A stretch of DNA of 48,171 nucleotides from Coemansia sp. RSA 922 (Eukaryota > Kickxellomycota > Kickxellomycetes > Kickxellales > Kickxellaceae). Each line of letters begins with the position of its first letter. Position 1 is the first letter of the stretch. A program made the position numbers and the translations under genes. Shown here one piece after another: positions 1 to 33,276 of the stretch. The stretch spans positions 1 through 48,171 of the forward strand of contig JANBQS010000040.1 in assembly GCA_027577415.1 (NCBI GenBank), read 5' to 3'. A model generated the notes under the pieces. It made no database searches. It worked only from the letters and a program-made list of their open reading frames with translations, and was not told the origin of the DNA.

Positions 1-1080
1 CATAGACACATAGGACGGCTTACTGTACCTTGTATAGCGCAGAGAACAGAGCAGACAGGCTAGCACACAGGCAAAAGAAATAATAATAATAGACAGTGGA
101 CAAAATACTTCAACAAGAGGAAGAAGCCAGATGATAAGGAGTTGGACGCGCAAGGACCCGCCCACCCCGCCTGACGCAGGGATCAATTTTGGAAGGCTGT
201 CATTCAAGGCAGATTGCAATCTGCAGACAAGGCAGGAGAGACGCATCATCGCCGCGAGTTTGGGGCAAGGGAGGAGAACATCCTAGCACCAGTATCTACG
301 AGAGGGAGACATATGCTGGTTTATGCTCGATGCTGCAACATGTACGTGCGAATCTCCTTCGACATATGCCCTCCCTGCTCGCCATCATTTGGATGGTGCG
401 CAAATACCATGCACCTCCCTGCCGCCAAACGAGCCCTTGCTATGCGCAATCCATGTATGCCATATTAATGCGTACTCCCCCTTGCGCTTGGACGCAGCTG
501 ACAGTGTCTGTGCAACAGGCGTTGGGGGGAGAGAGGGAGCGCAACTGCCGCCACCCCTACTGATAAACGATACTGGGGCCTATTGTCTATTATGCGCGGC
601 GCAACGCCAGCCGTACTAAGCGCCTCAAGTTTAGTTGGCCTCGTCATATCTACATGGTATCAGCCCCAAGGTGTCGAGCTAGCAATACATGCCAAATGGC
701 CCTGATGCAAAGTCGGCTCATCACGGCACTTTTCGCACATATCCAGAATCGATGCAGGTGTGCTTGAGCGCCTTGCATACATGCGCTGCACTTGTCGGGG
801 ATGCTGCACTTGCTTTGGAAAGCGCAGAGCGAGTGAACCAATAGCAGCAACCACCATTACTACGCGCACTTCTTTGGCACACCAAGGGCCCTTTGGCATG
901 TCCTCACATGCGCAGTCCTAGCATGACGTGATGCAGGCCGATATGCTCGCTACACGCTTTCTCTGCTAACAGTGCCTATATTTGCTGCGCCAGGCTCTCT
1001 GTGCAAAAAAAATGTCACAGTAAACGTTCTCTTTGGATATTATATATCTAGACGTTGTTCTGCCTCTTTGCTAAAGAAAA
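1..1080. other. Intergenic lead-in, no gene recognised
   Basis: About 1.1 kb upstream of the glycogenin-like gene. Several short ORFs exist on both strands, but they overlap each other, are rich in Cys, His, Arg and Met, and resemble no family I know. No tRNA or rRNA and no clear repeat was seen. The last 100 bases are AT-rich and carry the promoter of the next gene. Confidence 0.6.
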
Positions 1081-1088
1081 TATAAAAA
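1081..1088 (+). promoter_or_regulatory. TATA box of the glycogenin-like gene
   Basis: TATAAAAA lies 93 bases before the ATG at 1174 in an AT-rich stretch, a fitting core promoter distance with a short 5' UTR. Confidence 0.5.
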
Positions 1089-1173
1089 GAAAATATTAGC
1101 GATATACATTTCTCGCCGTCACTTTAATTCTCCGCGTATCTTTTCTGTTTTCATATTTTGCGACTTGTAAACA

Positions 1174-2553
1174 ATGTCAGATACTAATTCCGCTATAAAG
1201 CGTGTATGCTTTGCCACTTTGCTCACAACCGACTCGTATGTGCATGGCGCTCTGGTGTTGGCTGCCTCGCTACGCGCCACCGGAACTCGGCACGAGATTA
1301 TATGTCTAGTAGCCGACGGCCAGCTATCGCGCCCAGCGCTCGAGCGTCTGGCTCCGGCATTTGACCGCATAGTCAGCGTGCCTATTCTGGATACAAACGA
1401 CGCCAACAACTTGGCGCTGCTGGGCCGCCCCGACTTGGGCTCGACAGTGACCAAGATCGGCATATGGGGGCTGACAGAGTACGAGCGCGTCGCCTTTCTC
1501 GATGCTGACACGCTTGTACTCGACCAAATTGACTCGCTACTCTGCTTGGACTCATCCGTCGAACTGTTGCCAGGCGATGCGGCTGTTGGCCGCGACTATC
1601 GTCCCAACGGCGGTATGGCTAACGAGGGTCTACTGGCAGCTGCGCCTGACTTGGGTTGGCCGGACTGCTTCAACTCGGGCGTTTTTGTCGCAAAACCCTC
1701 CACCACGACGCACACACGCTTGCTTGCCTTGCTCGCCAGCCAAGGCTCATTTGATGGTAAAGTATCCATGATGAAAATGCGGACCAATCTCATCCAATCC
1801 GCAGAGGCAGTCGCATACCCTCCTCACCCCCAACCATATGCAACATGTGCTTGGACAATCATCCTCTCATCCAGTATCATTATCGATTTGCATGCAATCT
1901 CCACTATCGATGTGCATAATGTAGGCGGAGATCAGGGACTACTCAATGCCTATTTCGACGACTGGAGCCGCGCCGACCATACCCGCCGCCTGCCATTTGC
2001 CTATAATACGACATCAACGAGCTTTTACACTTATGCGCCGGCGTTTGCCCATTTCGCGGATTCTATCAAGGTCGTGCACTTTATCGGCGCACAGAAGCCT
2101 TGGAAATGGCGTCGCGCTCACGATGGCTCCTTACTATTAGGCGCCACAGCCGCTACTCCCTATGACTCTAACGCATCGCCATTTGCCGTGTTTATCGAAA
2201 AGTGGTGGAATGTCCATGACACCCACGTATCTTTGTGGTCGCCCGCCAAGGGTCATTTCAGCCAGGAAGTGGCGTTGTCGCTCTCCGAGCACTATGGCCC
2301 TGGCTCTGCTTTAGGCTGTGTTGCGCGCGAGCAGCCTTCTCTGAGTGTAGCCTCGCTGTCGCTTTCGTCGCACCAGTTGGATGATGCGTGGAAGAGAGAA
2401 GGAAACAACTATGCCTCTATCGAAAGCCGCGGTACTAGTGAAAATGGTTGGAGTGAGTTCATGCCCGCTCACGACTTTGCTCTTAGCCCATTGAGTTCAG
2501 GGGCTTCTTCTAGCCACTCTAGCGGTATCAATTTAAACCGCCAATCTGACTAG
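1174..2553 (+). CDS. Glycogenin-like GT8 glycosyltransferase (exons 1174-1756 and 1925-2553)
   Basis: Family 8 glycosyltransferase of the glycogenin type, which in other organisms starts glycogen by self-glucosylation from UDP-glucose. Visible hallmarks are an N-terminal Rossmann-like start (CFATLLTTDSYVHGALVLAASL), the DADTLVLD motif carrying the metal-binding DxD, the CFNSGVFV segment, and GDQGLLN followed by VVHFIGAQKPWKW. The open frame runs through 459 codons, but 1757-1924 is best read as a 168-base GT-AG intron: it starts GTAAAGTA, ends ATGTAG, and removing it joins SFDG directly to GDQGLLN as in the family. The spliced product is 403 residues. The C-terminal third is Ser-rich and low complexity, as in fungal glycogenins where it holds glucosylated Tyr and the glycogen synthase contact. 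Plant and fungal GT8 galactinol-synthase-like enzymes are the alternative. Confidence 0.85.
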   Translation: MSDTNSAIKRVCFATLLTTDSYVHGALVLAASLRATGTRHEIICLVADGQLSRPALERLAPAFDRIVSVPILDTNDANNLALLGRPDLGSTVTKIGIWGLTEYERVAFLDADTLVLDQIDSLLCLDSSVELLPGDAAVGRDYRPNGGMANEGLLAAAPDLGWPDCFNSGVFVAKPSTTTHTRLLALLASQGSFDGKVSMMKMRTNLIQSAEAVAYPPHPQPYATCAWTIILSSSIIIDLHAISTIDVHNVGGDQGLLNAYFDDWSRADHTRRLPFAYNTTSTSFYTYAPAFAHFADSIKVVHFIGAQKPWKWRRAHDGSLLLGATAATPYDSNASPFAVFIEKWWNVHDTHVSLWSPAKGHFSQEVALSLSEHYGPGSALGCVAREQPSLSVASLSLSSHQLDDAWKREGNNYASIESRGTSENGWSEFMPAHDFALSPLSSGASSSHSSGINLNRQSD

Positions 2554-2754
2554 TTTTCCTTAGGGGCGCAACTTTTTATTATCGTCACTAGCGATGACAT
2601 GAAACATGTTGCTTGACTTTGGTACCACTTTTCTGACGAATGAAGAAATTACACAGACAGTTCTTTCTAATGTAAACCAATGATAATTTAAGTATCTGAA
2701 TAGGAAAGTAGGCATAGGTGATACGTCCAGCGTACCAAATTTATTAACATTTAA

Positions 2755-3300
2755 TTATAAGACACGACCATTGACGTGACCGTTATCGATATGAGCATTA
2801 TCGTCTCGATCGTCATAATCTTGATCGTCATAGACTTCATCACTATCGACCTCATCGCTGTCGACTTGGTCGCTATAGTCTTCGTCGCTATCGTCTTGGT
2901 CGCTATAGTCTTGGCCACTATCAACTTGCTCGCTATCGTCTGGAGAGCTATCGATTAGAGGGTCACTGACCAAATCGTTACGTATACCCTCAACCCTATC
3001 ATCCACATCTTCTTCGTAACCGTAAATGATATATTTACAATCATCGTCGATATCAGGCTCCGCGTCGTTTAAATGTCTTAGCCACCCGTAGTTAACATTG
3101 TACATATCATAAATTCGACCATCAGTACCATTAAGCAAATAACGAATGTTAATCCTGTATCTTTGGACTCGTAAGGCGTCTAAGTTAGTAATAGCACGAC
3201 GACTGAATGTACGATAGGTGGGCCTACCCATATTATCTCTCAAGTACGCGATAATAATTCTGTTGGGATTGGTATAATCTTCAGGTCTAACGCGTCGCAT
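2755..3300 (-). CDS. Unknown protein with acidic pentapeptide-repeat tail
   Basis: A 181-residue ORF I do not recognise. Residues 1-95 are mixed and Arg/Tyr-rich (starts MRRVRPEDYTNPNRIIIAYL) and could fold. From about residue 95 the protein becomes extremely acidic, and residues 120-155 are degenerate five-residue units of the form DSDE(V/D) or YSDQ(D/V). There is no signal peptide or membrane segment. A clean TATATAAA on the minus strand at 3401-3408, 101 bases before the ATG, and an AT-rich leader support a real promoter. The tail could bind basic partners such as histones or ribosomal proteins, but that is a guess. It sits in a block of lineage-specific genes. Confidence 0.55.
   Translation of the reverse strand: MRRVRPEDYTNPNRIIIAYLRDNMGRPTYRTFSRRAITNLDALRVQRYRINIRYLLNGTDGRIYDMYNVNYGWLRHLNDAEPDIDDDCKYIIYGYEEDVDDRVEGIRNDLVSDPLIDSSPDDSEQVDSGQDYSDQDDSDEDYSDQVDSDEVDSDEVYDDQDYDDRDDNAHIDNGHVNGRVL
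2839..2943. repeat. 15-bp coding minisatellite, about 7 units
   Basis: Seven imperfect head-to-tail 15-base units of the type GTCGCTATAGTCTTG keep the reading frame and encode, on the minus strand, the acidic five-residue repeats of the 2755-3300 protein. The length divisible by three suggests expansion under coding constraint. Confidence 0.75.
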
Positions 3301-3400
3301 TGTGATAATATACTTTTAGTAGTGTGACGGTGATGGAGTAAAGAGAAGATAGAATGGCACTTTGTTTTATTTGATTGAAAAATGCTGGCGCAGGGTGGGC

Positions 3401-3408
3401 TTTATATA
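3401..3408 (-). promoter_or_regulatory. TATA box for the acidic repeat protein gene
   Basis: Reads TATATAAA on the minus strand, 101 bases upstream of the ATG at 3300. It lies inside a plus-strand ORF (3382-3714), which argues against that ORF being a gene. Confidence 0.55.
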
Positions 3409-3790
3409 CCTGCCATGAGAAGGCAAAAAAAGGAGCGCAGTCCAATTCTCCCCAAAGGTGGCGCAGTCTTCTCCCAGCCAGTGCAAAACAAAACTAAAAA
3501 TAAGTCTCGCCTTAAAGAAGGTGAAAGAAGCTGTGGTTTGGGCACCCCCAAAAAACTAAGGGCCAATTCCAAAATTATCTATGCCATTGACACGCTCAAA
3601 AAAAACGAGGCTGTGTTAATTTTGATATTAAAGATTATCGAGTCCTCTACCAATGGCGTGGACAAAGTAGCTCCTATATTGACGGGTTATTGGCACTTGT
3701 TTCTCAGAAAGTAAAGAATATATGCTTGGTAAAGGAAATATATTCATCTATATGAATGTCCTTCGTTAAAGGTACTTTGGGCGAAATGAA

Positions 3791-4271
3791 TTAACGCCCA
3801 GCTCTCGTGGTCTTATGAAATGAAAATCTCATCCGTGGTTTCCCTATGAGGCAGACACCCGATTGGGTATTTGGCAAGCAGGGCATGTGTGTGTATAATC
3901 CATCCCAACTTTGAGCTGTGATCGCCATCGCGCAACATAATTTATAGAGCGGTGTGTTGTCATGCAATGCAGCCTTTATTAGCCCCTTAAACATCGGAAG
4001 TTTAGCAAATACAAAGCACACTGGATCGTCAATGGTGTCCTTACTAAACGTAGACTTGTGATCATTAGACTCAACCCTACCATTGCTGCTTACAATGTGA
4101 AGAGATGTTTGATCCATGTATTTATTATTTCCCCCTTAAATATTGCTTCAATCAAATTGTTTCCAGCTTGCTTATACGTTTTCCTGTACAATTCTGATTA
4201 TTCGCATCAGTCGAATGAACTTTCCATCCAACTACATGAATTACAGGACACTGAGTGATATCGTTGACCAT
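3791..4271 (-). CDS. Duplicated unknown gene, copy A (predicted exons 4178-4271 and 3791-4134)
   Basis: Homologue of the gene at 5139-5504. The shared start is MVNDITQC against MVNNITNC, then NQNCTG in both, then TSLHIVSSNG against TSLYIVSKNG and similar hydrophobic segments. Read straight through, copy A hits a stop after about 40 codons. A 43-base segment, 4177 down to 4135 on the minus strand, starts GTATAAGC and ends TTTAAG, and removing it restores one frame of about 145 residues. Copy B has no matching intron, so the segment could be a real tiny intron or copy A could be a decaying pseudogene. No signal peptide and no known domain. The TATA box, 5' leader and start context are strongly conserved with copy B. 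Confidence 0.45.
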
Positions 4272-4377
4272 TGTTAGTCGAGGTGATGAGAATAAAACTA
4301 GTTAAGGGCAGATACTTGAAAATAATAGTGTTGTGAAGAGAGGAGAGGGGAAAGAAGTAATGGCATCCACGGGTGAT

Positions 4378-4386
4378 CTTTTTATA
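4378..4386 (-). promoter_or_regulatory. TATA box of copy A
   Basis: Reads TATAAAAAG on the minus strand, about 107 bases upstream of the copy A ATG (4271). The same element and surrounding leader are conserved at 5612-5620 before copy B. Confidence 0.6.
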
Positions 4387-4420
4387 CCATGCTTGGAGTG
4401 GCCGCCGACGCAACAAAAGT

Positions 4421-4447
4421 GAGAGAGAGAGAGAGAGAGAGAGAGAG
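4421..4447. repeat. (GA)n microsatellite
   Basis: Thirteen uninterrupted GA dinucleotides just upstream of the copy A core promoter. Copy B keeps an interrupted version near 5656-5673. Confidence 0.9.
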
Positions 4448-4803
4448 CTGCGGCAGAAGTATTTCCCCAACATTTTTACCGTCGTCATTGTCATTGACGT
4501 CATTGTCGTCATAGCAGTGTTTTTAAAAAAGGAGTGTAAGAACTATAAAACGAGAATGGACAAACGAAAATCGAAAGGGGCACAAAAAAACCTCTGGCAA
4601 TAGGAAATGAGGCTGTGCGAAAAAAAAAAAAAGAAAAAAGATTTGGATACGACTAAAAGCAGACAAAAAATTCGGAAACAGAACGAAAACTGACGTCACA
4701 GCTATCGGTGAACACTGGCCATGGATTTCCTCTCAAGGAGCAGCGTCTATTATTACCAACATTCAAAAATCTGGATTAAGTAGACCCAGAATACATAATC
4801 ACT

Positions 4804-4990
4804 TTATTGCTTTCCGGTACGGGGGCGGTTGGCGCCTGCACCTGCACCTGGAGCCTGGTTGGCAGCGTTGCTGCTGCCACTGTTGGTGGTGCGGCTGCAC
4901 AATCCACGGGTGGACCAAACGCCTTTAAACTCGCTCGACCCGCTGAGGAGTAGAGCCGGCTCCTTCTGCTTGGCAGAAAGTAAATGTCTT
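4804..4990 (-). pseudogene. Coding-like C-terminal fragment ending in RTGKQ
   Basis: The minus strand reads an open frame ending SNAANQAPGAGAGANR then PRTGKQ and stop. The same terminal peptide (NQAPGAGAG, two or three residues, RTGKQ, stop) is in frame in the duplicated block, ending at 5955, where the frame is closed by a stop only about 30 codons upstream. The higher GC of 4801-4980 and preservation of the peptide suggest a former coding 3' end. I do not recognise the parent protein, and no promoter or clear start is visible, so it looks like a relic. Confidence 0.3.
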
Positions 4991-5138
4991 GAATCAAAAT
5001 GACAATATTCTAAGGAACTCAAATATATTTATTGTTGTAAGTGAAGGAGGGTATTGCTTTAAAAGTATTATACTAGAAGCATACACGTACGTCACTCTCT
5101 ACAAAACTGTCTATACTTTGAAAAAACCCTATCACCAA

Positions 5139-5504
5139 TCATCTTTTTTGATGACTATGGCATCCATATGAAATCCTACAAAAGTAATCATAGACTGACT
5201 CCTTAGAGTCTTCACAACATTTCACTATGCCAGCGTAAGTTAAATGGTGACAAAACACAAAAACTACATGATCTGGGATTTTGTTTTCGCTAAATCCGTC
5301 AGCCTGAGAATTACACTCCACGTCGCCATTTTTAGAAACAATATATAGCGAGGTGTGGCCAGAAATTTGCGTACATTTCTTATATACCTTGTCGGCAGCA
5401 GATGAAAAGGTATCACCAGTACAATTTTGGTTATTATTAGGCGAAGATTCAAAAGCATCCTTTGAAATTTGCAGAAGAAAACAGTTGGTAATATTATTGA
5501 CCAT
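5139..5504 (-). CDS. Duplicated unknown gene, copy B
   Basis: A 121-residue intact ORF starting MVNNITNCFLLQIS, with eight cysteines and segments NQNCTG, TSLYIVSKNG and VVFVFC shared with copy A. No signal peptide, membrane span or family I know. The TATA box (5612-5620) and leader are conserved with copy A. The C-termini differ: copy A continues with a Cys-containing tail where copy B ends in HSHQKR. It is probably the functional member of a lineage-specific pair. Confidence 0.55.
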   Translation of the reverse strand: MVNNITNCFLLQISKDAFESSPNNNQNCTGDTFSSAADKVYKKCTQISGHTSLYIVSKNGDVECNSQADGFSENKIPDHVVFVFCHHLTYAGIVKCCEDSKESVYDYFCRISYGCHSHQKR

Positions 5505-5611
5505 TGCTAATCGAGGTGATGAGAATAAAACTAAATACTAAGAGCAGATACTTGAAGATAATAGTGTTGTGAAGAGAGGAGAGAGAACGAGGAATGAAAT
5601 CCACAGGTGAG

Positions 5612-5620
5612 CTTTTTATA
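5612..5620 (-). promoter_or_regulatory. TATA box of copy B
   Basis: Reads TATAAAAAG on the minus strand, about 108 bases upstream of the ATG at 5504 and conserved with copy A. Confidence 0.6.
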
Positions 5621-6225
5621 CCATGCTTGGGGTGACCGCTGAGGCAGCAAAAAAGAGCGAGAGTGAGAGAGAGATCGGTGACAAAAGGCATTACCCAACA
5701 TTTTTTTCATCGTCAATGCCATCGAAATCATTGTCACTGGCATCAACGTCATTGTCGCCGTCATCATAGTCGTCATAGTAGAGTTGTGATAAGGGGGAAA
5801 TGGTAATGAACACTACATGATGAGGCTGCATGATCGAAAGTGGGTGTCATAGCTATCTGTGAACACTGGCCATGGATGTCCCCACAAAGAGCAGCGTCTA
5901 TTATTGCTAATGATTAAAAATCTGGATTAAGTAGACCCAGAATACATAATCACTTTATTGCTTTCCGGTGCGAGAGCAGTTGGTGCCTGCACCTGCACCT
6001 GGAGCCTGGTTTCCAGCGCTGCTGTTGTCACTGTCGGATGGTCGCTAGATGCTGCAAATCCACAAATATCGATCCAGACATTAGTGCTGGGAATCCGCAG
6101 CAATCGTAAGTGGTAATCAACTACAAAAATGAGGAGGAAAGAGGGGAGCAGCCATCTCTCCTCTCTTTCTCTTCTCTCTTGTTCATTCTACCCATTTCTT
6201 TTATTCGTTTGGTACTAACGTTAAT

Positions 6226-7938
6226 ATGAGAAAGTGTCTCACCGCTATTGGCATCCCACCTTCGGCCACATTGGATGAACGCATCAGAGGCCTCTTTCCG
6301 CCTGGAGCCATGTATGACTGCGATCCCGAGCCAATGGGTACCCTTGCTGAAAGGCGGATGCGTCAGATTAGTAGCGATATTCGTTCTAAGCCCGACTGGA
6401 TGGAGACGATTGGTAACGCAGACGCTCGTGCTGGCTGGGCCGCCGAAGCCAAAGCAAGGTGGCTGACTGGCGTTGAGTTTGCATACGTACTGGATGAACT
6501 GGAATATTACGCGTCTCTACATCCACCAGGCAGCAACATCAAACTTAGTGCAGCAGATGGCGTGTGGTTCTCTGATACGCTTGTTGACGACAAGACCACA
6601 AATGAGCTCAGGGACTATGCAGCCATTCTTGAGAGCGTGCCAGATCGTCAAAAAGACTGGCACCCAAATGACCGCTCTCGCGTACTCAATTTGATAGACC
6701 CGTCACTGTTTCCATTGATATATAGCCACTCAAAGCTGTATCGTCAGATCAGTACGTCCCCACAGGCAGCGCTTAAGCTTGGAGTGGTCGGGGAGTTTCC
6801 TGGGTCCATTGACGAGTGGCACAAGACTTTAAACGCCAATGAAGGCGGGGAGTCTGAATACCACCTCCCGACGGGGCATGGGCGGTATTGGTCTTATATT
6901 TCTAACAAATTTAGCTGGTTACCGTCCGAGTTTCGCGTTGACGGCAATGGTGCTGTCACTATAGAGTCATACATCAACAACTTGCACCCCGTCAAGCATG
7001 CAGCGCTGTACCCGATTATTGCCGGTGTTTTTTCCTATTTTCTTCCACTTTTGGAACAAGTGGTGACCGATCTAGTGCATCCGCGTCAGCCACGAGTGAA
7101 ACCAGATTCGTCAAAATACTACAAGAGTGATGAGCCTCTACCCGACCGTAACGACGATTACTACGAGGAGGATCTTATTCTCTGGAAGGACCGCGCAACA
7201 TTTGTCCACCCGCAACCTGAGCCGTTTGTTGCGCCCGCACGCCCTATAAATCCATACAAGCTCTGTGGTCGGCGACTACAGGCCATTGTCAAAATGTCCA
7301 ACGTTGAGCTGACGTCAAAGAGGCCAATATACGGCGGCAAGGACTGGAGCATAGCGGGCTTGGCTAATGAACGCATTATTGCCACCGGGGTATTCTTTTA
7401 TGACATGGCAAACATAGCTCCTGTCAGTCTGGGATTCCGCGAGGCAATTTGTCCTTGGGGCTTTGAGGCTGAACAATTTGACACTGAATCGGTTGTTAAG
7501 GCGTACGGTATAGAGCCAAGCCAACTGTGCAGCGATGACTCCATATCGCAGGAGCTAGGAGGTGTTGGCATTAAAGATGGACGATGCGTGGTGTTTCCCA
7601 ACATACACCAGTACAAGTTTCCCAAGCTCAAGCTAGCTAACAAGACCAAGCTTGGCCACTGCAAGATGCTTACGTTTTACTTTGTGGATCCTACTACGCG
7701 CATTCCGTCGACAGAGATTGTGCCACCCCAGCAGCAAGACTGGTATTTTGATGATGTCTTTGGATATGAACCGTTCCGCAGTTTGCCGCAGCTGATAGTG
7801 GACGGCATATTGGCCAAGGTCAATTTTCCAATTTCACTCAAGGAGGCCAAGAAGCTTCGTCTACAGGTGCGCCAGGACGACGTTTGTGAGCATATTTCAT
7901 ATGAGCTATTTTCTCCAAGATATTATTTTAGCTCCTAG
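6226..7938 (+). CDS. DUF4246-family protein, predicted metal and 2OG ligands lost
   Basis: A 570-residue cytosolic protein of the fungal DUF4246 family, thought to have a jelly-roll 2-oxoglutarate oxygenase-like fold. The C-terminal half carries the family signatures: LQAIVKMSNVELT, YGGKDW followed by ANERIIATGVFFYD, CVVFPN, and DPTTRIPSTEIVPPQQQDWY. From memory the family reads WHVEG, QHR and GHRK at the positions expected to hold the HxE...H metal triad and the 2OG-binding Arg. Here they are WSIAG (Ser375, Ala377), QYK (Tyr463) and GHCK (Cys479), so all four predicted ligands are replaced. The frame is intact and start and length fit the family, so this looks like a non-catalytic member rather than a broken gene. 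Pyrimidine-rich sequence at 6155-6205 precedes the ATG. Confidence 0.8.
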   Translation: MRKCLTAIGIPPSATLDERIRGLFPPGAMYDCDPEPMGTLAERRMRQISSDIRSKPDWMETIGNADARAGWAAEAKARWLTGVEFAYVLDELEYYASLHPPGSNIKLSAADGVWFSDTLVDDKTTNELRDYAAILESVPDRQKDWHPNDRSRVLNLIDPSLFPLIYSHSKLYRQISTSPQAALKLGVVGEFPGSIDEWHKTLNANEGGESEYHLPTGHGRYWSYISNKFSWLPSEFRVDGNGAVTIESYINNLHPVKHAALYPIIAGVFSYFLPLLEQVVTDLVHPRQPRVKPDSSKYYKSDEPLPDRNDDYYEEDLILWKDRATFVHPQPEPFVAPARPINPYKLCGRRLQAIVKMSNVELTSKRPIYGGKDWSIAGLANERIIATGVFFYDMANIAPVSLGFREAICPWGFEAEQFDTESVVKAYGIEPSQLCSDDSISQELGGVGIKDGRCVVFPNIHQYKFPKLKLANKTKLGHCKMLTFYFVDPTTRIPSTEIVPPQQQDWYFDDVFGYEPFRSLPQLIVDGILAKVNFPISLKEAKKLRLQVRQDDVCEHISYELFSPRYYFSS

Positions 7939-8249
7939 TTGCGCTTCATTTAGTGTGGTTTAAGTATCGAGTGCTGTTAAAATGTTGTTGTTGCACAGTG
8001 TTATTTTCCGCGCTTGGTTACTATGACACATGTATCGGCTGGGCACTTAATATAGCTACATTGTAATGGATTATTGGCGCTGAAATTAGTGTGGTCTAGC
8101 CAAAACATCTCACAATGTAAGGTGTAGCGGAGCGGAGTAAGAATATAAAATAGAATATCATAGCATAGCGAATATGTACCAATAAAGAGTAAAGTGTAAG
8201 CAATAATCATATCCTGATTAGCCGCGCGCCTGTTGTTTATATGACCTCA
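7939..8249. other. Intergenic, no gene recognised
   Basis: AT-rich 3' flank of the DUF4246 gene. A TATAAAA (8143) and AATAAAG (8181) are present on the plus strand without a convincing ORF between them. The 69-residue minus ORF at 8001-8210 is Leu/Tyr/Cys-rich and resembles nothing. Confidence 0.5.
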
Positions 8250-8452
8250 ATGCAGCTCTCTTCCATAGCCACTGTCGTTTGGCATACAAAGGGGGTTATC
8301 TTTGCTCGTCTTCGCAGAGCTCCTCCCAGTCTGCTACCGACTCTGGAAGCCAAACTAGTACCGAGTCGAGCCGCCCGAACTCTGCAGCTGGCCTCTCAGC
8401 CGTTGGATCGCTGGCCGTGTTTGCGTCGGTGCTTGTCGTAAGCATGTTCTAA
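8250..8452 (+). pseudogene. Relic of a GPI-anchored, Ser/Thr-rich surface protein
   Basis: The frame ending at TAA 8450-8452 encodes 44 residues of classical GPI-protein C-terminus: SSSQSATDSGSQTSTESSRP, then a small-residue omega region (NSAAG), then a hydrophobic tail (VGSLAVFASVLVVSMF). Upstream of 8318 this frame has no start, but another frame offers ATG at 8250 with a signal-peptide-like start (MQLSSIATVV). The body expected between the two is missing. This fits a gene that lost its middle by internal deletion, or a last exon behind the TTCGCAG at 8311-8317 whose upstream exons I cannot find. Confidence 0.45.
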
Positions 8453-8688
8453 TTACGTTCAATATAGGCGCATATGACGCCAATCTCGCTATCCGTCTCC
8501 TCTTCTTTTGGGCTGGATTGACATAATCCAGATATTACAAAGAAGGCTTTGCACCAATTTTCTACTCCAGACAACTAAATGCTGATCCTATAGACGCTGT
8601 TGCGAACCTGAGGAGAGGTTCTTGTCCTCTTGCTCCCTTTTATTATTTTGTTGCCAAATATCTCTTACACTAGCAAACCATTACTCAA

Positions 8689-10941
8689 ATGCAGGCTGAT
8701 ACAGGAGCAAAGGGAGCTTCCATGCTGTTACGCGCTGCAGGACTGCCCTTTAGACTCATTAAGAGCACTGCCTTGGGCACAGCGTATCTACGCCTTGCTG
8801 GTCTGGCGAAGAGTAGGATGAAGACTGCCCGGCAACTAGTGCACCCCCAGACTAGGCTCACATGGAAAATCAACGTAGACTCGATTGTCGAAACTGAACT
8901 GCCATCGTCAGGGAGGTTTGGCCTGAGATCGCTTCTCACTCGAGCAATAACGAAACCCGACGACGATTCGCCAAAAATCACCATGCTCAATGCCTTGACA
9001 GCGCTGCATATGGCTGCCGACGATCCACGAGTCACGCATCTGGATGTATGCGTTGTACCGGCTGCTGGAACCAGGAACCGCCCAGTATCTCTTGGCTTGG
9101 GGTTTGCGCAGACTGATGAGCTCCTCGAAGCAGTTTTGAAATTCAACCAAAAGAAGGCCGAGCAGTATGAGTCCGGCAACTGGGGTTCGTCTTTTACTAT
9201 TGATTCGTTTGATGACCAGCTGACGTACTACTTTGCCTCGGCGTTCAACAAAATCGTGGTCCAGCCTACTGGACAGCTGCCTCTCACGGGGATCTCGTGG
9301 ATTCTACCCTACTACAAGAAGCTGCTTGACAACGTGGGCATTGAAGTCCAGACCGGATCTTGTATGGAGTACAACAGCGCGTCCGCGCCGTTTACGGAGT
9401 CTGATATACCGGATAAGCACAAGGACAATGGTATGAGTATTCTCTTTCATCTAAACGAAGTATTTCTACACGCCATTACTCTTTCGCGCGCCAGCAGTAT
9501 CGCCGCCTTACGTACAGAAATAACCGACGAAAACAAAGACCCCTATCGGTTTGCACAGGATTTTATGCATACGGCTATGACACAGCATGGCCCGTATATC
9601 GACGCTCAGATGGCTAAACGTATTGGCCTTATAACCGATGTCGGCGGCACCTTTTTTGACGACGAGGGCTATAAGGTCGGAGAGTGTACAGAGATAGGTG
9701 CGTATGTCAAGGCACGTCGTCAGGAGATTGAGCGAGAGAGCCATGGTACGCCCGTACTAGACGCGATGTTGGTCAAGCTCGCTCAACTCCAACGGCGTCA
9801 ATGGACTGCTAACATGACCAAGCTTTTACGCACATACCAGTCACAGGACCGAGTGACCGTGGGCGTTGTGTACCTGCATGGAAGCATTGAGCGCGGCGGT
9901 GCGAATGGAGGTAGCCTTGTCTGCAAGGCTCTTATTGACGCAGCAGAAGATCCCGAGGTCGAAAGCATCGTTTTACGCGTCGACTCTGCCGGTGGCGACT
10001 TTGTTGCTAGCGATGCTATTGCGTCGGCAGTTAAAATGGTGCAGTTCAAGTACGGAAAACTTGTAGTCGCTAGTTATGGCAACACAGCGGCGTCAGGAGC
10101 ATACCTTGCTACGACTCATTGCGATTGCATCTTTGCCAGTCCTGCCACTCTAACTGGTGGCATCGGGGTATCTTCAACGCGCCCGGTAGTTACCAAGCGG
10201 TTTACGGATTTATTTGAACTTGGCACTCGGCTTTTCACTCTCACCGGCCCAAATACTAATTGGCACAAGCTGGAGAGTGAGAAACTCGAAGCGTTTAAGA
10301 GTTTTGTCGGCAAAACTAATGACTCGTTTATTGCTCAGGTGGTCAGTGGGCGAAATATATCCGAAGAGGAAGCTGAGAGTGTTGCGCAAGGCCAAGTGTT
10401 TACTGGACTCCAGGCCAAGGGAAACAAGTTAATCGACGTTATAGGCGGGTTTGTTTATTCTGTTGAAGCTGCCGCACAGTGTGGTTATGAAAACCGAGCA
10501 CATAGTCTACGCTCTATGACAGGACACTACCTTCAATCGGCAATTGCGTCAGCTCAATGCGAGTGTGCGGCTGATTATGATCCAATCTTGAAGGATAGAA
10601 AGTACCAGGTGCCAAGCGAGTTGGATCCGCGGGTCGAGCGTAAGGTGGGATTTCCAGGCAAGATTGTTAAAGCCATACTTGACAAGAGTTATTTGGACAA
10701 GTTCAATGATCCTACATATAAGTACGACGCCGACATTACCAAGAACATCCGGATCAAGGAGTTTTCGACGTCCGATACCAGCACAAGCGGCCTTCTCTCG
10801 CTAATTGCCAAACTTGTAGGTGGCGACTTGGTCAGAGAGGCGGTTGCTAGTGCACTGCGCCAAGAACGCGATAGCATTGCCTCCTCGTTATCAGCAGTAG
10901 AGCAGCCTCGCGCCGAAGCAGATATCATGAACATCAAGTAA
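8689..10941 (+). CDS. SppA/protease IV-like S49 protein, catalytic Lys replaced by Asn
   Basis: A 750-residue two-domain S49 family protein. In bacteria and chloroplasts SppA degrades cleaved signal peptides using a Ser/Lys dyad. The C-terminal domain has GVVYLHGSI, VLRVDSAGGD and AASGAYLA, with the nucleophile at Ser469, then a GGIGV segment. The N-terminal domain follows bacterial SppA closely (YYFASAFNKI, LPYYKKLLDNVGIEV), but where E. coli has TYKSAVEPF with catalytic Lys209, this protein has EYNSASAPF, so Asn229 replaces the general base. The residues from Met12 (MLLRAAGLPFRLIKS, Arg/Lys/Ala/Leu-rich with no acids) resemble a mitochondrial presequence. Bacterial or organellar ancestry is likely. 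It may be inactive or act as a scaffold. Confidence 0.85.
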   Translation: MQADTGAKGASMLLRAAGLPFRLIKSTALGTAYLRLAGLAKSRMKTARQLVHPQTRLTWKINVDSIVETELPSSGRFGLRSLLTRAITKPDDDSPKITMLNALTALHMAADDPRVTHLDVCVVPAAGTRNRPVSLGLGFAQTDELLEAVLKFNQKKAEQYESGNWGSSFTIDSFDDQLTYYFASAFNKIVVQPTGQLPLTGISWILPYYKKLLDNVGIEVQTGSCMEYNSASAPFTESDIPDKHKDNGMSILFHLNEVFLHAITLSRASSIAALRTEITDENKDPYRFAQDFMHTAMTQHGPYIDAQMAKRIGLITDVGGTFFDDEGYKVGECTEIGAYVKARRQEIERESHGTPVLDAMLVKLAQLQRRQWTANMTKLLRTYQSQDRVTVGVVYLHGSIERGGANGGSLVCKALIDAAEDPEVESIVLRVDSAGGDFVASDAIASAVKMVQFKYGKLVVASYGNTAASGAYLATTHCDCIFASPATLTGGIGVSSTRPVVTKRFTDLFELGTRLFTLTGPNTNWHKLESEKLEAFKSFVGKTNDSFIAQVVSGRNISEEEAESVAQGQVFTGLQAKGNKLIDVIGGFVYSVEAAAQCGYENRAHSLRSMTGHYLQSAIASAQCECAADYDPILKDRKYQVPSELDPRVERKVGFPGKIVKAILDKSYLDKFNDPTYKYDADITKNIRIKEFSTSDTSTSGLLSLIAKLVGGDLVREAVASALRQERDSIASSLSAVEQPRAEADIMNIK

Positions 10942-11031
10942 TGTGTTACCATTTCTTTTATAGAACAATAAGAGAATTTTAGATTTACTCTATCTCATGT
11001 GACATATTGAGCCATTTGCAATGTTGGTCTA
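10942..11031. other. 3' flank of the SppA-like gene
   Basis: Contains AACAATAAGA just after the stop, a likely 3'-end signal. Confidence 0.4.
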
Positions 11032-11289
11032 ATTGTAACGAATCTGCATTGTAGAATATGCATTCGCACAATGAAGTGGGATATGTGCATGCTAATTGGT
11101 ACAATAGGGAAGCTTTAAGATTTGTTCATTCATTGCCATCACCTGCAGTTTGGTACAATTGATATACATGTAGCGATGGGCAAAAAAGAAACAACGGTAC
11201 CATTGACAAACAATATATTGGCATTCATAACAATGCAATTGTAAACGTATGCTATTCAATCACCGATGGAGAAGCAGCCAATACACAAT
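11032..11289. promoter_or_regulatory. Cluster of nine ACAAT/ATTGT motifs upstream of the micropeptide gene
   Basis: ACAAT or its complement starts at 11032, 11048, 11068, 11101, 11155, 11210, 11230, 11238 and 11285, nine copies in 258 bases on both strands. I estimate roughly one by chance at this base composition. ACAAT (best form AACAATR, seen at 11209 and 11229) is the core bound by HMG-box factors of the SOX/fungal mating-type class. That this is their target is inference; the clustering is directly visible. Confidence 0.5.
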
Positions 11290-11358
11290 GGCATATAGTT
11301 TAGGGCATATGTTTTGCAAAATGTAAAATAAGAGCAAGAGACCTAACCTCCAAACGTG

Positions 11359-11366
11359 TATAAAAA
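11359..11366 (+). promoter_or_regulatory. TATA box of the micropeptide gene
   Basis: TATAAAAA sits 77 bases before the ATG, followed by a C/A/T-rich leader (CTCACCAACCAACTATCTCA) typical of a strongly expressed fungal gene. Confidence 0.7.
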
Positions 11367-11435
11367 GGGAGTAATGTCCCCACCTCTTCATCTCACAAAA
11401 CCATCAGCAACACTCACCAACCAACTATCTCAACC

Positions 11436-11525
11436 ATGAACGCCTACGCTACTCTCTTTGCCATTGTCGCTATTGCCGCCGCAACTGCCAACGCCCAGGT
11501 CGTCTGGCTCGGTCCCTGGCCCTAG
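11436..11525 (+). CDS. 29-residue secreted micropeptide (mature form probably QVVWLGPWP)
   Basis: A complete small ORF, ATG to TAG. Residues 1-20 (MNAYATLFAIVAIAAATANA) are a textbook signal peptide with an Ala-x-Ala cleavage site, leaving nine residues, QVVWLGPWP, with two Trp and two Pro. Support comes from the canonical TATA box, the CAACC-ATG start context, coding-type GC-rich third positions (GCC, CTC, GTC) against an AT-rich background, and AT-rich 3' sequence with ATAAA-type signals from 11553. No consensus 5' splice site (GTAAGT or GTATGT) lies in the ORF, so it is probably not the first exon of a larger protein, though CAG|GTCGTC cannot be fully excluded. Size and makeup suggest an extracellular signal such as a pheromone or hormone peptide. 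I know no family for it. Confidence 0.6.
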   Translation: MNAYATLFAIVAIAAATANAQVVWLGPWP

Positions 11526-11690
11526 ATTTCCTCCACTTGTTATACACATAAACAAATACACATAACTATATCATCATAAAAGTGACTTTCCAAGACTGAA
11601 TAGCTTTGCTGTTTGTAATTACAGTTAATATATCTAATAGCGTTATCTGACAACATGTGCCTCTACAAAAAAATATATTCACAAACCACT

Positions 11691-14600
11691 CTAATCTTGT
11701 TGATGCTCGTCAGGGTCCTCAGAGGAGCCAGAACCATTGGCATTGGTCGCGCTAGTCGATTCTAGCGTCCTTCTATTAGAAGAGTATTCCCTGATATTGT
11801 CCATCAGCTGGGCATCTATGCTTGCACCAGCCTTGACCATTTCCCGCAGCGTGTCCACAACGACTTCATGCCTGCCGCTCTGGGCGAGTCGACGAAGAAC
11901 CTCGGCATAAAGCTTTGTGCTCGTTACAAGCCCACTCTTGTGCATGGCGCTCATTATCGCCGCCGCCTTGGCGACCTCGCCTCGAGAAAGGTAGTACCGG
12001 ATTATGACCGAGAACTGACGCGGCGTTCGCTGCACCTTGTCCAAAGTGTTAAAGCACCAGTTGTTTTGAGCGAGGGCTGCACATCGTGTCGAGTTCCCAA
12101 TGGCGCTAAATATCCCCAGTGCCCCGCTGATATCATCCTGCATCAACCGGCTCTGAATCCACAAGGCCGCCGTGATCTCGCTGTGAGGAATGCCTCGGTC
12201 GACCATTTCCACAAAGAATGCCTCGGCCGCCCCGTACTTTCCGGCGTTGATGTGCGCGCGAGCCACTACTGCATATCCAGACCCACTGACAGGAAGATCC
12301 AAGTACTCAAACTCCTTCCAGATCGACATGATTTTTGCCAGGTTCGTCGAGTAGAACCCAGTAACCCTACACGCTTCGGAGTGTCCCAGCCACATTTGAT
12401 CGTCCTCGACAGCGCCTACAGTTGACACCAAGTCAACTGTCGCCTCTATATCAGCTGCAAAGTCGGCGGCACTTGGCAGAGCAATGTCAGGAGGTGGCCC
12501 GGATATCTGAGTGTCCAATCGCAAGTCTTGAATGGTGGGCGGCGGTACTGACTGCGCAAACTGGAGTTCGCGTGGCGGCTTGAGGTTGGCATAGCAATGC
12601 AAGAGAGACGAGAGAGCGCTGGCAGAAAGTGCAATACCGCGCTGGCGCATCGCCTCAAACACGCTATCCACGCCCTCGACTGAGCCGTAGTGCGAGCAGC
12701 TCCCAGCGATGGCGCAATAGAACCGCGCATCCAAGAGCTCGGGAGATATGGTGGACAAAAAGTCCAAGCACTCCACGTAAGCAGTCCGTGAGGTCGAAGA
12801 CAGCGCTTGCATGGTGATAGTCAAAAGCGATGCTGGAGCCCCTGCCTTGACAGCCGAGGCGATATGTCGCCTCAAAGCCTTTATGACAAACTCCTCAGAG
12901 GCGTTCACGTTGGTGGCCTTTCTCGGAGAGCTAAAGTTTGTCAACCACGACTGGGTAAATGCGGTGAGCGCCTTTTCGTACGCATATCGTGGAGGCATCG
13001 TGCCATGGGCCTCTAACGTAGTAAGCACCAAATCTGCGACAACTTCGCGAAACGGAGACTTTGCTGTGCCGTCCAGCAGATCCACCGCAGTGCGGCCCTG
13101 ATCCTGGCTCACGTTAATAGCCGTGTGAACGACAAACGGCAGCAAGTGTGAGTCGACTGTGGCCAGCTGATCAACAGCTGCCGACCAGGCTTCCAGGCAT
13201 CCTCGCATTGACGACATAACGCCAATGATCCACTCCAGGTCTGCCACTTTGTGCTCCACGGCGCACAAGGCAAAGAACGCTCCGAAGCTGTCGTCAGACA
13301 CCACGCGTAGCGATTGCGTGCGTTGTACGTAGCGCAAAAAGTTTGCCAGGTCCGTAGTAGATGAGCGACTGGCCAGGTATCGGCAGTAGAGGTTAATTGT
13401 GCGCGGCTTCAGAGAAATGTCGTGCTGGACGACGTAGCCCGCGAGACCGTGAGACTCGTCGAGCATCTTGTGGTTGACATAGTACTCGATCAGCGGCGAG
13501 TATGGCAAATAATGTCGGTTGACTGGCAGCCCAGACAGAAAGTCGAGTGCCTGTCGCGCCTCAACAACACCGCGATTCTCAATCAACACTAGGACAAGCT
13601 TCTCCATGGTCGGCCCGTAAATACGAAGCCTTGTAAAATCCGAATCACGCAGCCGCTCGTGTAGCTCCTCGTACGTGGCAATAGCGGCCACTGAATTATT
13701 CGCCTCGAGATGCATTTGAAGGACAAAGAACAACAGTTCAATGCCCGTTGGCACACCCGCCGCTGCCAGCGTAGTGTACGTCTGAATGGCCAGCTGTAGG
13801 CCGCTATGTAAGCGAATGTGGCGAATAGTACGGAAGAACAGCCGAAATGAAGGTGTGAATCCGCGCTCAATCATACGAGTAACCTCGGCTGCCAGCGCCT
13901 GCGGATCGGCGGCTATTTCTGAGCAGCCCAGCAACACGCTAAGCCGAGCATTCGCTGTCAGGTTGTTGTCTGGGTACTGAGCAAGATCTACACACGCCGA
14001 CAACTCGCTCGCCAACCCCATTTGCGAGAGAACCTGAACGACCGTGGGTATATTCTCTGGCATCTGGAGAGCTATACGGGCCATCGCGATAGCCAGGTCG
14101 GGATTCAAGCGCTCGGACGCATTCTCCATGACAACTTTGCCCAGCATGGCGTCAGAGCCAAGACCGTGCGCCCTTAAGCGCTGAACCAATCCGTCAAACA
14201 TGCTGTGCTGGCCCGACCAGTGGTAGCCCTTCAAAATGGCGACAAAAAACCGCTTGTCCGGAGCACACCCCCAGCTCTTCATACACGCTATAAGGTCGCC
14301 TAACCGCTTGCTTCCGCGGTCGCCGTCTGGGTCTAGCGAGCAAGCGGTGGCGAGCAGGCAGAAGCAGTTGAGAGTGGGCTCTATATCGCGACGGCGCATG
14401 TCCCCAAGGAGCGCGAATGCCATTTCCGTGTTCCAAGTAAGCACGTACTCCCTGATCATCATGTCGTACATGAATGACCTCGCCTGGCCAGTCCGAGTCA
14501 GCTTATCAAACAGAGCTCGACCCTCCTTATGCCGCGAGGAGCGAAGGAGGGCCTGGCACATGCTAAACTCCTCAAAGCTCGTAAGGGGAATAAATTCGCT

Positions 14601-15605
14601 CCGGAGTGCGTCTTTGTAGCACCGCCGAGCATCGTCCAACAATCCCAGCTTGGCGTATGTTGTTAGCAAAACTCGGAAGCGGGTAGGGTAGAGTAGTGGG
14701 TCTGTCGTTGCATCCGTTTCGATCTGGGCCAGAAATCGCCGACCAGCGATGCTGCCTAGACTGCCACAGTAGACGATCAGATCTCGCATATCCTCCCTAG
14801 TCAGCCTTTTACACCCATCTGCTAAATTCGCGTCAATGGATGTGCGATATAGCTGCCACACTTGCGTCGGATCAACTGTGATCGGCGGGCTGGACAGCAA
14901 CTGGCGTAACTGTGCGACTTCAGAACCTGCGCCATCAAGTTGTGTCGCCAGTTCTGAACTTGGAAATGGTGACAGCGTCGTAAAGTCTCCACTACGAGAG
15001 GATCCGCTGGTCGGTCGATCCAAGGAAAGGCGCTCGACATTTCCAACTAGAGAACGACTAATGCTGGACAGACGACCCTCGTCAATGTCGCCACATATCT
15101 GCTGTACCCAGTGTACCTCCTGTTCTGTAAGCTGGCGTCTGCCGGAGATATCCTTGACAACCGCTGATATTCGTGCCAGCGCCCGAAGTTCATCGTTATC
15201 GCCAGCGAGAAGCTCCAACAAGTGCAATATTGTACTTGGTGCAAACGTGTGAATGCCAGCGTGCTCTTTGTCCAGTCGTTGATACAGCCCCCAGACAGCC
15301 TCGCGCTGCGCTTGGGCTCCTGTTCGGGATAGCTGGTGTAGCTGAGCTAGCAATCGCTCCTCGGGGCTCCAGTCACTATATATCAAGCGTGTGTTCTGGC
15401 GCGGAGTGCTGTTGGTGCAAACACCACGAAATGGCTGTCGCCGACGTGCTGAGGCTAGTAGCGCACCGACCTTTGGGTTTGCCAGATCGCTGACAAGCAC
15501 GGCGCACGGCGCATAGCGCACGGCTTGGCCAGACTGCACCGAGGCTTTGGGAATGAGATTCGAGGCACACCTCTGTACATGTTGCCATGTCGTCAAGTGC
15601 GGCAT
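11691..15605 (-). CDS. Large pentatricopeptide repeat (PPR) protein, likely mitochondrial
   Basis: A helical-repeat protein of 1304 residues. The open frame continues to 15680, but the first ATG is at 15605 (MPHLTTWQHVQR). The N-terminus is Arg/Ser/Ala/Gln-rich with few acids over about 60 residues, fitting mitochondrial import. PPR-type helix pairs of about 35 residues recur throughout, for example MYDMMIREYVLTWNTEMAFA with LLGDMRRRDIEPT, LWIQSRLMQDDISGALGIF, and IIRYYLSRGEVAKAAAIMSA with MHKSGLVTSTKLYAEVLRRL. Fungal PPR proteins of this size bind organellar mRNAs and control their stability or translation. The exact orthologue (Pet309, Rmd9 or other) cannot be set by eye. The last 30 residues are a polar tail ending DPDEHQQD. 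Confidence 0.85.
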   Translation of the reverse strand: MPHLTTWQHVQRCASNLIPKASVQSGQAVRYAPCAVLVSDLANPKVGALLASARRRQPFRGVCTNSTPRQNTRLIYSDWSPEERLLAQLHQLSRTGAQAQREAVWGLYQRLDKEHAGIHTFAPSTILHLLELLAGDNDELRALARISAVVKDISGRRQLTEQEVHWVQQICGDIDEGRLSSISRSLVGNVERLSLDRPTSGSSRSGDFTTLSPFPSSELATQLDGAGSEVAQLRQLLSSPPITVDPTQVWQLYRTSIDANLADGCKRLTREDMRDLIVYCGSLGSIAGRRFLAQIETDATTDPLLYPTRFRVLLTTYAKLGLLDDARRCYKDALRSEFIPLTSFEEFSMCQALLRSSRHKEGRALFDKLTRTGQARSFMYDMMIREYVLTWNTEMAFALLGDMRRRDIEPTLNCFCLLATACSLDPDGDRGSKRLGDLIACMKSWGCAPDKRFFVAILKGYHWSGQHSMFDGLVQRLRAHGLGSDAMLGKVVMENASERLNPDLAIAMARIALQMPENIPTVVQVLSQMGLASELSACVDLAQYPDNNLTANARLSVLLGCSEIAADPQALAAEVTRMIERGFTPSFRLFFRTIRHIRLHSGLQLAIQTYTTLAAAGVPTGIELLFFVLQMHLEANNSVAAIATYEELHERLRDSDFTRLRIYGPTMEKLVLVLIENRGVVEARQALDFLSGLPVNRHYLPYSPLIEYYVNHKMLDESHGLAGYVVQHDISLKPRTINLYCRYLASRSSTTDLANFLRYVQRTQSLRVVSDDSFGAFFALCAVEHKVADLEWIIGVMSSMRGCLEAWSAAVDQLATVDSHLLPFVVHTAINVSQDQGRTAVDLLDGTAKSPFREVVADLVLTTLEAHGTMPPRYAYEKALTAFTQSWLTNFSSPRKATNVNASEEFVIKALRRHIASAVKAGAPASLLTITMQALSSTSRTAYVECLDFLSTISPELLDARFYCAIAGSCSHYGSVEGVDSVFEAMRQRGIALSASALSSLLHCYANLKPPRELQFAQSVPPPTIQDLRLDTQISGPPPDIALPSAADFAADIEATVDLVSTVGAVEDDQMWLGHSEACRVTGFYSTNLAKIMSIWKEFEYLDLPVSGSGYAVVARAHINAGKYGAAEAFFVEMVDRGIPHSEITAALWIQSRLMQDDISGALGIFSAIGNSTRCAALAQNNWCFNTLDKVQRTPRQFSVIIRYYLSRGEVAKAAAIMSAMHKSGLVTSTKLYAEVLRRLAQSGRHEVVVDTLREMVKAGASIDAQLMDNIREYSSNRRTLESTSATNANGSGSSEDPDEHQQD

Positions 15606-16235
15606 GGCAATTCTATAAGGGAGAGTGCAGAGCCGCTTGTTGGCTTGAGTAGCCACACTAGGAATTCGCAAAATGCCCAATCGTTAAACGAGAAATATAT
15701 ACGAAGAGAAAAAATGTACAGAAGAGAGATAAGTGCAAGGAACCTTGCTGAAAATCACACTTTGGGTTTGATTTGATCAAGTCTGTTTGTTAAGAAGAGG
15801 TGTCGGAGGCAAATGGAGGCCCAAGAGCGACAGCGTTCAAAGTCGCAGCCCCAGTGGGACTGCCAGCAAGTGGGTACTATGTCCGTCCGTAGTATCGATC
15901 TAGCCCGCCCCGTGCACTGGTTGCAGCGCAAAAGAGCGCCGCTAGACTACCTCGCAGATACAGCATACCGCAGCATGCCCTCGCAAAACGCAAGAGCACA
16001 GCGCGGCTATAGATCCCACCAAGTACAGGGGATGCTGGGTTGCCAGGAGCCAAAGATGAGCCAGGCACGGGTCCACAGCGATGTGAGGGCCCGCTTTGCT
16101 TTGGCACCAATTCGCAACACGGACCGCCACCTGATTATGATCATGTTGCTGTCAGCTTTTGCTGCCCCTCAGATTATGGCTGGGAGGCTAATCACGACTC
16201 GCTAATCACGGATTCGCAATCCAGTGGCGCTACAT
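15606..16235. other. Divergent intergenic region between PPR and HSP90
   Basis: Holds the PPR promoter (15606-15780, AT-rich) and upstream HSP90 sequence. A 130-codon ATG ORF at 15813-16205 is Gln/Arg-rich, overlaps an equally open minus frame (15877-16110) and has no recognisable domain, so I do not call it a gene. Confidence 0.5.
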
Positions 16236-30128: not shown

Positions 30129-30412
30129 TGCGCCGATTTAGAAGGCTCTTCTGTGAACGACGAAAGGTGTGTCGTCTCTATATACGCTGAGTATAGAGTA
30201 GGTGTCGAAACGCGCAACGACAGTAGTAAAAAAAGAACAAACTTGCTTCCGTAAAGGTGAATCACCAAAGCAAGCGTTATAAAAAAATATGAAATGTGAA
30301 TTTATGCGAAGGAAAAAAGAACACTACTTCCGAAAAAAAAAAAAAAAATATTGCGACGACTTTTTCTTTTTAGAACTTTCCATAGTGCAATGTAGTAAAA
30401 ATTTACTTGGCT

Positions 30413-31529: not shown

Positions 31530-31657
31530 GGAGTTGATGAAATAGTACCTATGCCTGAATTAGACGCGGGATATTATAATCATCATATCCCTCGCTTGTC
31601 TGCTCTGTTGAGGCGAAATACAAAACGTTACAAATGAAATTCCTCGTTTCTGATCCA
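31530..31657 (+). ncRNA. snR57: C/D box snoRNA, snR57-like (18S Gm1572 guide)
   Basis: In intron 1. Box C-like TTGATGA (31534-31540), D' CTGA (31555), C'-like AATGA (31633), box D CTGA (31650-31653), and closing stem TGGA/TCCA. The 11 bases AATTCCTCGTT (31638-31648) before box D pair perfectly with 18S AACGAGGAATT. The fifth base before box D faces the G I recall as yeast G1572, the snR57 site. The box C first base (U) is non-consensus, and the spacing is longer than in yeast. Confidence 0.65.
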
Positions 31658-33138: not shown

Positions 33139-33276
33139 TTTTATAATGTTTCAAACAAAAAGGAAATATTTGTATTTGATGGTTTAAGGAGGTGAAACTT
33201 AAGAATTGGCTCGCAAGCCAACACATAAGGCAAGTTCACAAAAATACTTGGCTCGAGCCGAGCCGAGTCATCTACT

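Follow-up and report, generated by a model that had tools for sequence, protein, structure and literature searches.

Coemansia sp. RSA 922 carries a dispersed family of very short genes, present as 14 copies in the genome assembly, each of which encodes a 29-residue precursor made up of a signal-peptide-like segment and a near-fixed tail and follows a shared set of promoter elements. The gene family is real and conserved, and its upstream sequences suggest that it is probably co-regulated. The original prediction had described one gene for a secreted 29-residue micropeptide; the gene itself, its signal-like N-terminus and its short tail with Trp and Pro all stand, while secretion of that tail as a nonapeptide is, judging from the precursor, likely, and the single-gene picture had missed a multi-locus family with a common promoter. 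Our preferred reading, to which we give a probability of roughly 0.48, is that this Coemansia family supplies a secreted nonapeptide that would serve as a density- or development-dependent self-signal, working like Qsp1 of Cryptococcus neoformans; the signalling role is plausible but unproven. A conserved, secreted-looking nonapeptide with a promoter module of its own is a candidate signal that is cheap to test. For Zoopagomycota, mating genetics are described as “still not well understood” (PMC10386755). A search of the open-licence literature on peptides and pheromones of Coemansia and Kickxellomycotina returned no publication on this micropeptide family.

In the window, the whole stretch of 48,171 nucleotides that was analysed, the micropeptide gene is flanked by the ends of two genes, one for an S49 peptidase (8689–10941, + strand) and a convergent one for a PPR protein (11691–15605, − strand). 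The ORF of 29 codons and a TAG stop occupies 11436–11525 on the + strand, with the ATG at 11436 and the stop at 11523–11525, and is supported by family conservation and codon-shaped variation. Its translation is MNAYATLFAIVAIAAATANAQVVWLGPWP, in which A18-N19-A20 precede Q21. The signal-peptide-like segment, MNAYATLFAIVAIAAATANA (11436–11495, +), is recognised by its hydropathy, by the A-x-A motif before Q21 and by its match to the Coemansia reversa protein P0077 at 17 of 20 residues. The predicted released nonapeptide, QVVWLGPWP (11496–11522, +), has Q21 and V23–P29 invariant in the 14 copies, with Val or Ala at position 22. Counted from the codons, third positions are G or C in 20 of 29 cases, and the tail is written mostly in the favourite codons of the hsp90 gene of the window (GTC, CTC, CCC, CAG), so that, judged from its codons, the micropeptide gene is probably strongly expressed. 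The complete ORF, the TATA box, the C/A-rich leader and the G/C-rich third positions had all been part of the original prediction and were confirmed in the sequence; the span then proposed, 11359–11525, holds from TATA box to stop, but conserved promoter elements extend upstream to about 11030. Taken alone, the ORF at 11436 is a weak case, because it is one of 8 among 293 ATG ORFs of 20–60 codons in the window (∼3%) that pass a crude signal-peptide filter.

The family makes the stronger case. A six-frame search of the genome (20.4 Mb, 960 contigs) with the window peptide found 14 places that match over all 29 residues, at 79–100% identity and with no stops. Queries with a second family member and with the C. 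reversa protein gave the same 14 places, and no divergent paralogue with another tail was found by them. At the DNA level, a pattern for WLGPWP had 14 exact matches, all in the family, and 20 further matches with one mismatch in the genome, while a search of viral contigs with the tail pattern gave no match. All 14 ORFs are 90 bases long, and their flanks align with many gaps. Variable sites in the 14 copies are distributed 5/5/20 over first, second and third codon positions (of 29 each), and pN/pS, taken over every pair of copies, comes to 0.19 for the whole ORF, 0.199 for the signal part and 0.179 for the tail, although these constraint statistics pool related copies and so overstate independence. 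Conservation with synonymous drift, which had been named beforehand as a test, is thus found among the paralogues. Nine representative loci show 26 variable nucleotide columns (4/5/17 by codon position) that translate into 9 variable residues and no stop, whereas 5,000 shuffled placements of the 26 columns gave a mean of 15.3 variable residues and, in 3,618 cases, a stop in some copy; only one of the 5,000 was as conserved and stop-free as the observed ORF. Mean identity among these loci is 0.87 in the signal part and 0.95 in the mature part with the stop, and falls to 0.51, 0.27 and 0.24 in successive stretches past the stop. The motif A-N-A stands before the Gln in 13 of 14 copies, the exception being C285b, with Val at −1 (A20V). 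Lys and Arg are absent from all 14 copies, including the N-region of the signal segment, and Lys, Arg, Asp and Glu number zero in the three precursors counted. Cys is likewise absent from every copy, and the C-terminus is WP, or YY in C. reversa.

The 14 copies correspond to about nine loci, because the assembly contains two haplotypes. Contig C435 is colinear with window positions 1–15931 at 90–95%, and the contig pairs C170/C293, C874/C209, C88/C3 and C20/C44 align at about 88–98% over segments that measure hundreds to thousands of bases; haplotype partner contigs were not seen for C11, C617 and C285. Contig C285 carries two copies 5.4 kb apart, and since its upstream part is 92% like that of C20, the number of loci may be eight. 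Both haplotypes hold a copy in 5 of the roughly nine loci. These copy numbers are lower bounds, because contigs seem to be numbered by length and C874 still has 10,972 bases, so that short contigs are probably missing from the assembly. With two diverged haplotypes in its assembly, the strain looks diploid, hybrid or heterokaryotic. Further haplotype pairs were noted between C447 and window positions 28200–38144 (93%) and between the end of C555 and positions 47551–48171 (96%).

Among the matches listed, distant loci resemble each other mainly over about 100–290 bases that include the ORF, and some weaker or less extended similarity lies elsewhere. Neighbouring genes are mostly unlike from locus to locus (S49/PPR, RasGEF, DUF4246/FUSC, RING, Arb2, WD40/kinase), in a scan that covered 17 of 36 listed neighbouring ORFs together with the window's own, 5 of the 17 being without a Pfam match. 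Some neighbours recur: a “fungal protein kinase” lies near the copies of C293 and C44, and F-box-like sequences lie near those of C170, C88/C3 and C285. A link between the micropeptide and the S49 peptidase upstream of it was considered and rejected, as an S49 gene flanks the copies of C40/C435 and C209/C874, where a segment is duplicated between the two pairs, and the neighbours scanned at other loci are not S49. The S49 gene of the window (8689–10941), of the bacterial, SppA-like type, has been duplicated along with the micropeptide on C209/C874; its protein is 100% identical to one of Coemansia sp. S155-1 over 750 residues, and the best 26 of its 75 matches come from Coemansia, Linderina, Kickxella, Dipsacomyces and Martensiomyces, which identifies the window as DNA of a Coemansia (Kickxellomycotina). 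The DUF4246 gene at 6226–7938 of the window has more than 20 related stretches in the genome at 67–86%, one of them near the C88/C3 micropeptide pair.

Upstream of the ORF, alignment of the nine loci gives a module with the order (A)ATTGTAA, TTGTARAATA, AATT...ACAAT, TACAATT, CAATT and a TATA-like box. On the + strand of the window, the distal elements TAATTGTAA and then ATTGTAGAATA (with GTAGAATA at 11051–11058) lie at 11030–11058, where TTGTARAATA is aligned in 9 of 9 loci. The second element, AATTGGTACAATAGG (11094–11108, +), reads AATT and then ACAAT in 8 of 9 loci, with GTAAT in C11. A third, TACAATTG (11154–11161, +), corresponds to TACAATT in 7 of 9 loci, being absent from C293 and altered in C285b, and a fourth, CAATTGTA (11236–11243, +), to CAATT in 8 of 9 loci and to CAATTG in 6 of 9. 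The TATA box TATAAAAA (11359–11366, +) is placed 77 bases before the ATG and fits TAT[A/T][A/T]AAA in 14 of 14 copies. It is followed by the C/A-rich 5′ leader (11380–11435, +), whose last 30 bases show an identity of 0.71. On the 3′ side, CAAATACA (11553–11560, +) contributes an AAATA that is aligned in 12 of 14 copies, for which a role in 3′-end processing is a guess. A hairpin in the 3′ UTR (TTTGTT...AACAAA) was tried and rejected: five folded copies gave z values of −0.29 to −1.71, and the inverted repeat is not in every copy.

Between −600 and −76, the nine loci together contain 31 occurrences of the hexamer CAATTG, where first-order shuffles predict 3.1. Its density there is 6.56 per kb, 20-fold above the 0.32 per kb of control noncoding DNA (10 in 31,038 bp), a control that combines noncoding DNA of the window and of ten fetched stretches, promoters and other noncoding DNA alike, and in which some DNA is counted twice, one stretch (L044) being the other haplotype of window positions 1–7345. 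Each locus has 2 to 6 such hexamers, while control stretches of 525 bp never have more than 2. A strict pattern of two elements (GTAGAATA and the AATTGGTACAATAGG element) matches 8 places in the 20.4 Mb, all upstream of family copies, and its reversed control has 0 matches. The strict pattern misses 6 of the 14 copies by their letters; its matches in the family arise by construction, and its absence elsewhere is the finding. A looser cluster pattern returned 5 rows at 4 places (C54, C165, C329 and C952), with no family promoter among them. Together with the lack of some elements at some loci, these non-family matches count against the preferred reading. Moreover, the nine promoter stretches amount to about six independent groups, because the upstream stretches of C40/C209 and of C20/C285a/C285b are related. 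The ACAAT core of the family promoters presumably resembles HMG-box binding sites. At C54:25722–25758, away from any family copy, ACAATTG sites form a dense palindromic cluster that may mark a co-regulated gene.

Two relatives beyond this strain were found. A protein-database search with a 45-codon query found nothing, whereas joining three family variants into one query, so as to reach longer entries, brought up two proteins at E values up to 10, P0077 (E 4.0e-5) and P0078 (E 6.6e-4). P0077, from C. reversa NRRL 1564, is a “partial” entry of 64 residues without a proper start that ends in MNTYATLIAIVAVAAATANAQVYWLGPYY. Its tail, QVYWLGPYY, follows A-N-A and ends at the same length as the window precursor, with which P0077 shares 17 of 20 residues in the signal segment and 6 of 9 in the tail; for the C20/C44 variant, the corresponding figures are 18 of 20 and 5 of 9. 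P0078, from Coemansia sp. RSA 2337, has 132 residues, in which residues 1–25 of the C170/C293 variant are followed by other sequence, a second part that we take to be F-box-like. When P0078 was searched against the genome, 145 matches up to an E of 10 were obtained, of which 14 are the micropeptide copies and 52 others reach an E of 5e-9 or better. Of its two best counterparts, one lies on C199, a contig without a micropeptide copy, and the other on C170, on the same strand as the copy there and about 2.5 kb downstream of it. P0078 is apparently a misfused gene model that skips the real stop. Annotation thus handles such genes badly, leaving one relative “partial” without a proper start and fusing the other to a seemingly unrelated gene. 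Members of the F-box-like family (P0078 residues 25–132) were also noted near the copies of C170, C88 and C3 and, weakly, of C285.

The P0078 annotation argues for reading the ORF as an initial exon that is spliced into a longer protein, an outcome that had been named beforehand as refuting and that is unsupported by the comparison of loci. The C170 counterpart of P0078 does follow the micropeptide copy in the same orientation, but it is about 2.5 kb off and belongs to a large family, the other sits on a contig without a copy, distant loci have unrelated 3′ flanks, the C. reversa protein stops at the same length, and by eye the ORF contains no GTRNGT donor; we regard this alternative as very improbable. 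We think it equally improbable that the ORF arose by chance within a repeated noncoding element. Distant copies share a short unit that is scattered through the genome, and about 3% of short window ORFs pass the crude signal filter, yet variation is codon-shaped, with one shuffle in 5,000 as conserved, and a same-length relative exists in C. reversa. Of the alternatives that accept a peptide, a bulk surface-active, protective or antagonistic product, secreted without being a signal and located, for example, on aerial or spore-bearing structures, is unlikely but deserves weight. Mass production would fit the number of loci, the TATA promoter and the favoured codons, and the tail is hydrophobic, aromatic and uncharged, a character that QVYWLGPYY of C. 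reversa keeps while changing letters. Against this, none of the 14 copies departs from the Gln or from VWLGPWP, a precision beyond what a coat requires, and an antagonistic peptide without positive charge would be unlike a classical cationic antimicrobial peptide. Somewhat less probable still, though a serious rival, is an uncleaved 29-residue membrane micropeptide, its hydrophobic stretch spanning or embedded in a membrane with the Trp pair at the interface, or a signal segment that is itself active. Trp residues are common at membrane interfaces, strong conservation of the signal segment extends from the family loci to C. reversa, and hydropathy over 19 residues is 1.68–1.89 in the precursors scored, values compatible with a membrane anchor; but C. 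reversa and 13 of 14 copies have A-N-A and then Gln where they would be expected, and the strongly hydrophobic core looks short for a membrane span.

A mating pheromone of the alpha-factor type, made by one mating type and perceived by a Ste2-like receptor, would agree with a short, secreted-looking peptide that contains Trp and Pro and with promoter clusters of the ACAAT type, which we take to resemble HMG-box sites, HMG-box proteins being sex determinants in other zygomycetes. The alpha-type pheromones of Ascomycota are likewise short secreted peptides with Trp and Pro, but they are cut from long precursors with repeats and Kex2/Ste13 sites, whereas the Coemansia precursors have no Lys or Arg in 14 copies, no repeats and one peptide each. 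As copies are also found on both haplotypes at 5 of about nine loci, the kinship to alpha-type pheromones that had been suggested is not supported, and we consider such a pheromone decidedly unlikely. The STE2 profile PF02116 matched 0 of 1 genomes and was also silent in 14 of 14 control genomes, the assembly seeming incomplete, and STE3 had no genome match, with its controls likewise silent. Mimicry of an arthropod neuropeptide is hardly credible. Adipokinetic hormones of arthropods are made with a signal peptide directly before an 8–10-mer that starts with pGlu and has Trp at position 8, and a pGlu1, an aliphatic residue 2, an aromatic residue 4 and Trp 8 recall this pattern; the likeness is position-wise only, since the other core residues differ, C. 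reversa has Tyr at 8, and the Coemansia precursor has neither a C-terminal Gly for amidation nor an associated peptide. Kickxellomycotina do include arthropod gut fungi (PMC10386755), which favours mimicry, but Coemansia itself is recorded from soil and dung (PMC10386755).

For the preferred self-signal reading, we propose that each gene yields a minimal secretory precursor, in which a 20-residue signal peptide is followed by one nonapeptide, Q-[V/A]-V-W-L-G-P-W-P. Cleavage by signal peptidase, predicted behind Ala-Asn-Ala, would leave an N-terminal Gln that may form pyroglutamate, and the Pro at the other end would impede carboxypeptidases. N-terminal pyroglutamate and C-terminal Pro protect short peptides, so that a single cut could release a stable, uncharged extracellular peptide, with Kex2 unnecessary. 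A high dose would be reached through transcription from many loci with a TATA promoter and favoured codons, not through repeats within the precursor, and uptake may proceed through oligopeptide transporters encoded in the genome, where OPT-family matches occur at 4 places, as Opt1 imports Qsp1. That many loci have one kind of promoter and keep the peptide nearly fixed suggests that the product acts outside the cell and depends on its exact shape. Counting against the self-signal reading, the signal segment is constrained like the tail (pN/pS 0.199 and 0.179) and is better kept than the tail in C. reversa, which is unusual for a throw-away signal peptide and argues against a pure nonapeptide hormone. 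The missing Lys or Arg in the N-region, the anchor-compatible hydropathy and A20V in C285b also speak against it.

Among known systems, the Cqs1/Qsp1 system of C. neoformans is closest in its way of working. Cqs1 is a single gene whose very short precursor holds one peptide, and the Coemansia precursors resemble it in being short, at 29 residues in 14 of 14 copies, with a signal segment and one C-terminal peptide. The short one-peptide precursor, which had been taken for a new arrangement, therefore has a partial precedent. Qsp1 itself is a secreted fungal peptide of 11 residues, NFGAPGGAYPW, with aromatic and Pro residues (PMC5959073), and is released from a secreted pro-peptide, matured extracellularly by the protease Pqp1 and imported by Opt1 (PMC7537855). 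For the Coemansia peptide, in contrast, one cut by signal peptidase would suffice, as the sequence needs no further step; its genes are dispersed over about nine loci, the two fungi belong to different phyla, and by eye QVVWLGPWP and NFGAPGGAYPW have no sequence kinship. Other classes fit less well. Lipid (a-type) pheromones differ by their C-terminal CaaX box, which is absent here along with any Cys, and cationic antimicrobial peptides by a net positive charge that is lacking in the three precursors counted. The MSDIN/cycloamanide precursors of Amanita are likewise encoded by gene families, measure about 30 residues and carry a short peptide with Pro as its last residue, but they lack a signal peptide and combine a hypervariable core with a conserved follower, whereas the Coemansia precursor has a signal-like segment, a conserved core and no follower. 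Each of the alpha-type, lipid-type, MSDIN and cationic antimicrobial classes thus has at least one defining feature that the family fails to share. We would tentatively extend the self-signal reading to Coemansia as a whole, and perhaps to Kickxellomycotina generally, as a peptide communication system of their own, in which a ready-made nonapeptide would be released by one signal-peptidase cut and its dose set by about nine one-peptide genes under a dedicated promoter module. If true, this broader proposal, the more doubtful of the two, would give a peptide pheromone or autoinducer to a fungal phylum in which the genetics of mating are not understood.

Several other features of the window were noted. 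A stretch at about 35621–37902 is repeated at about 67–82% on many contigs and is perhaps a mobile element or part of a large gene family, and a dispersed repeat of about 170 bases, at about 38551–38722, recurs with 86–89% identity on at least 12 contigs. A short ORF that begins at 31161 (+) has a signal-like start, MWLFFLLLGACLSA..., and is perhaps the first exon of a secreted protein. Finally, positions 23105–25705 encode an asparaginase fused to ankyrin repeats.
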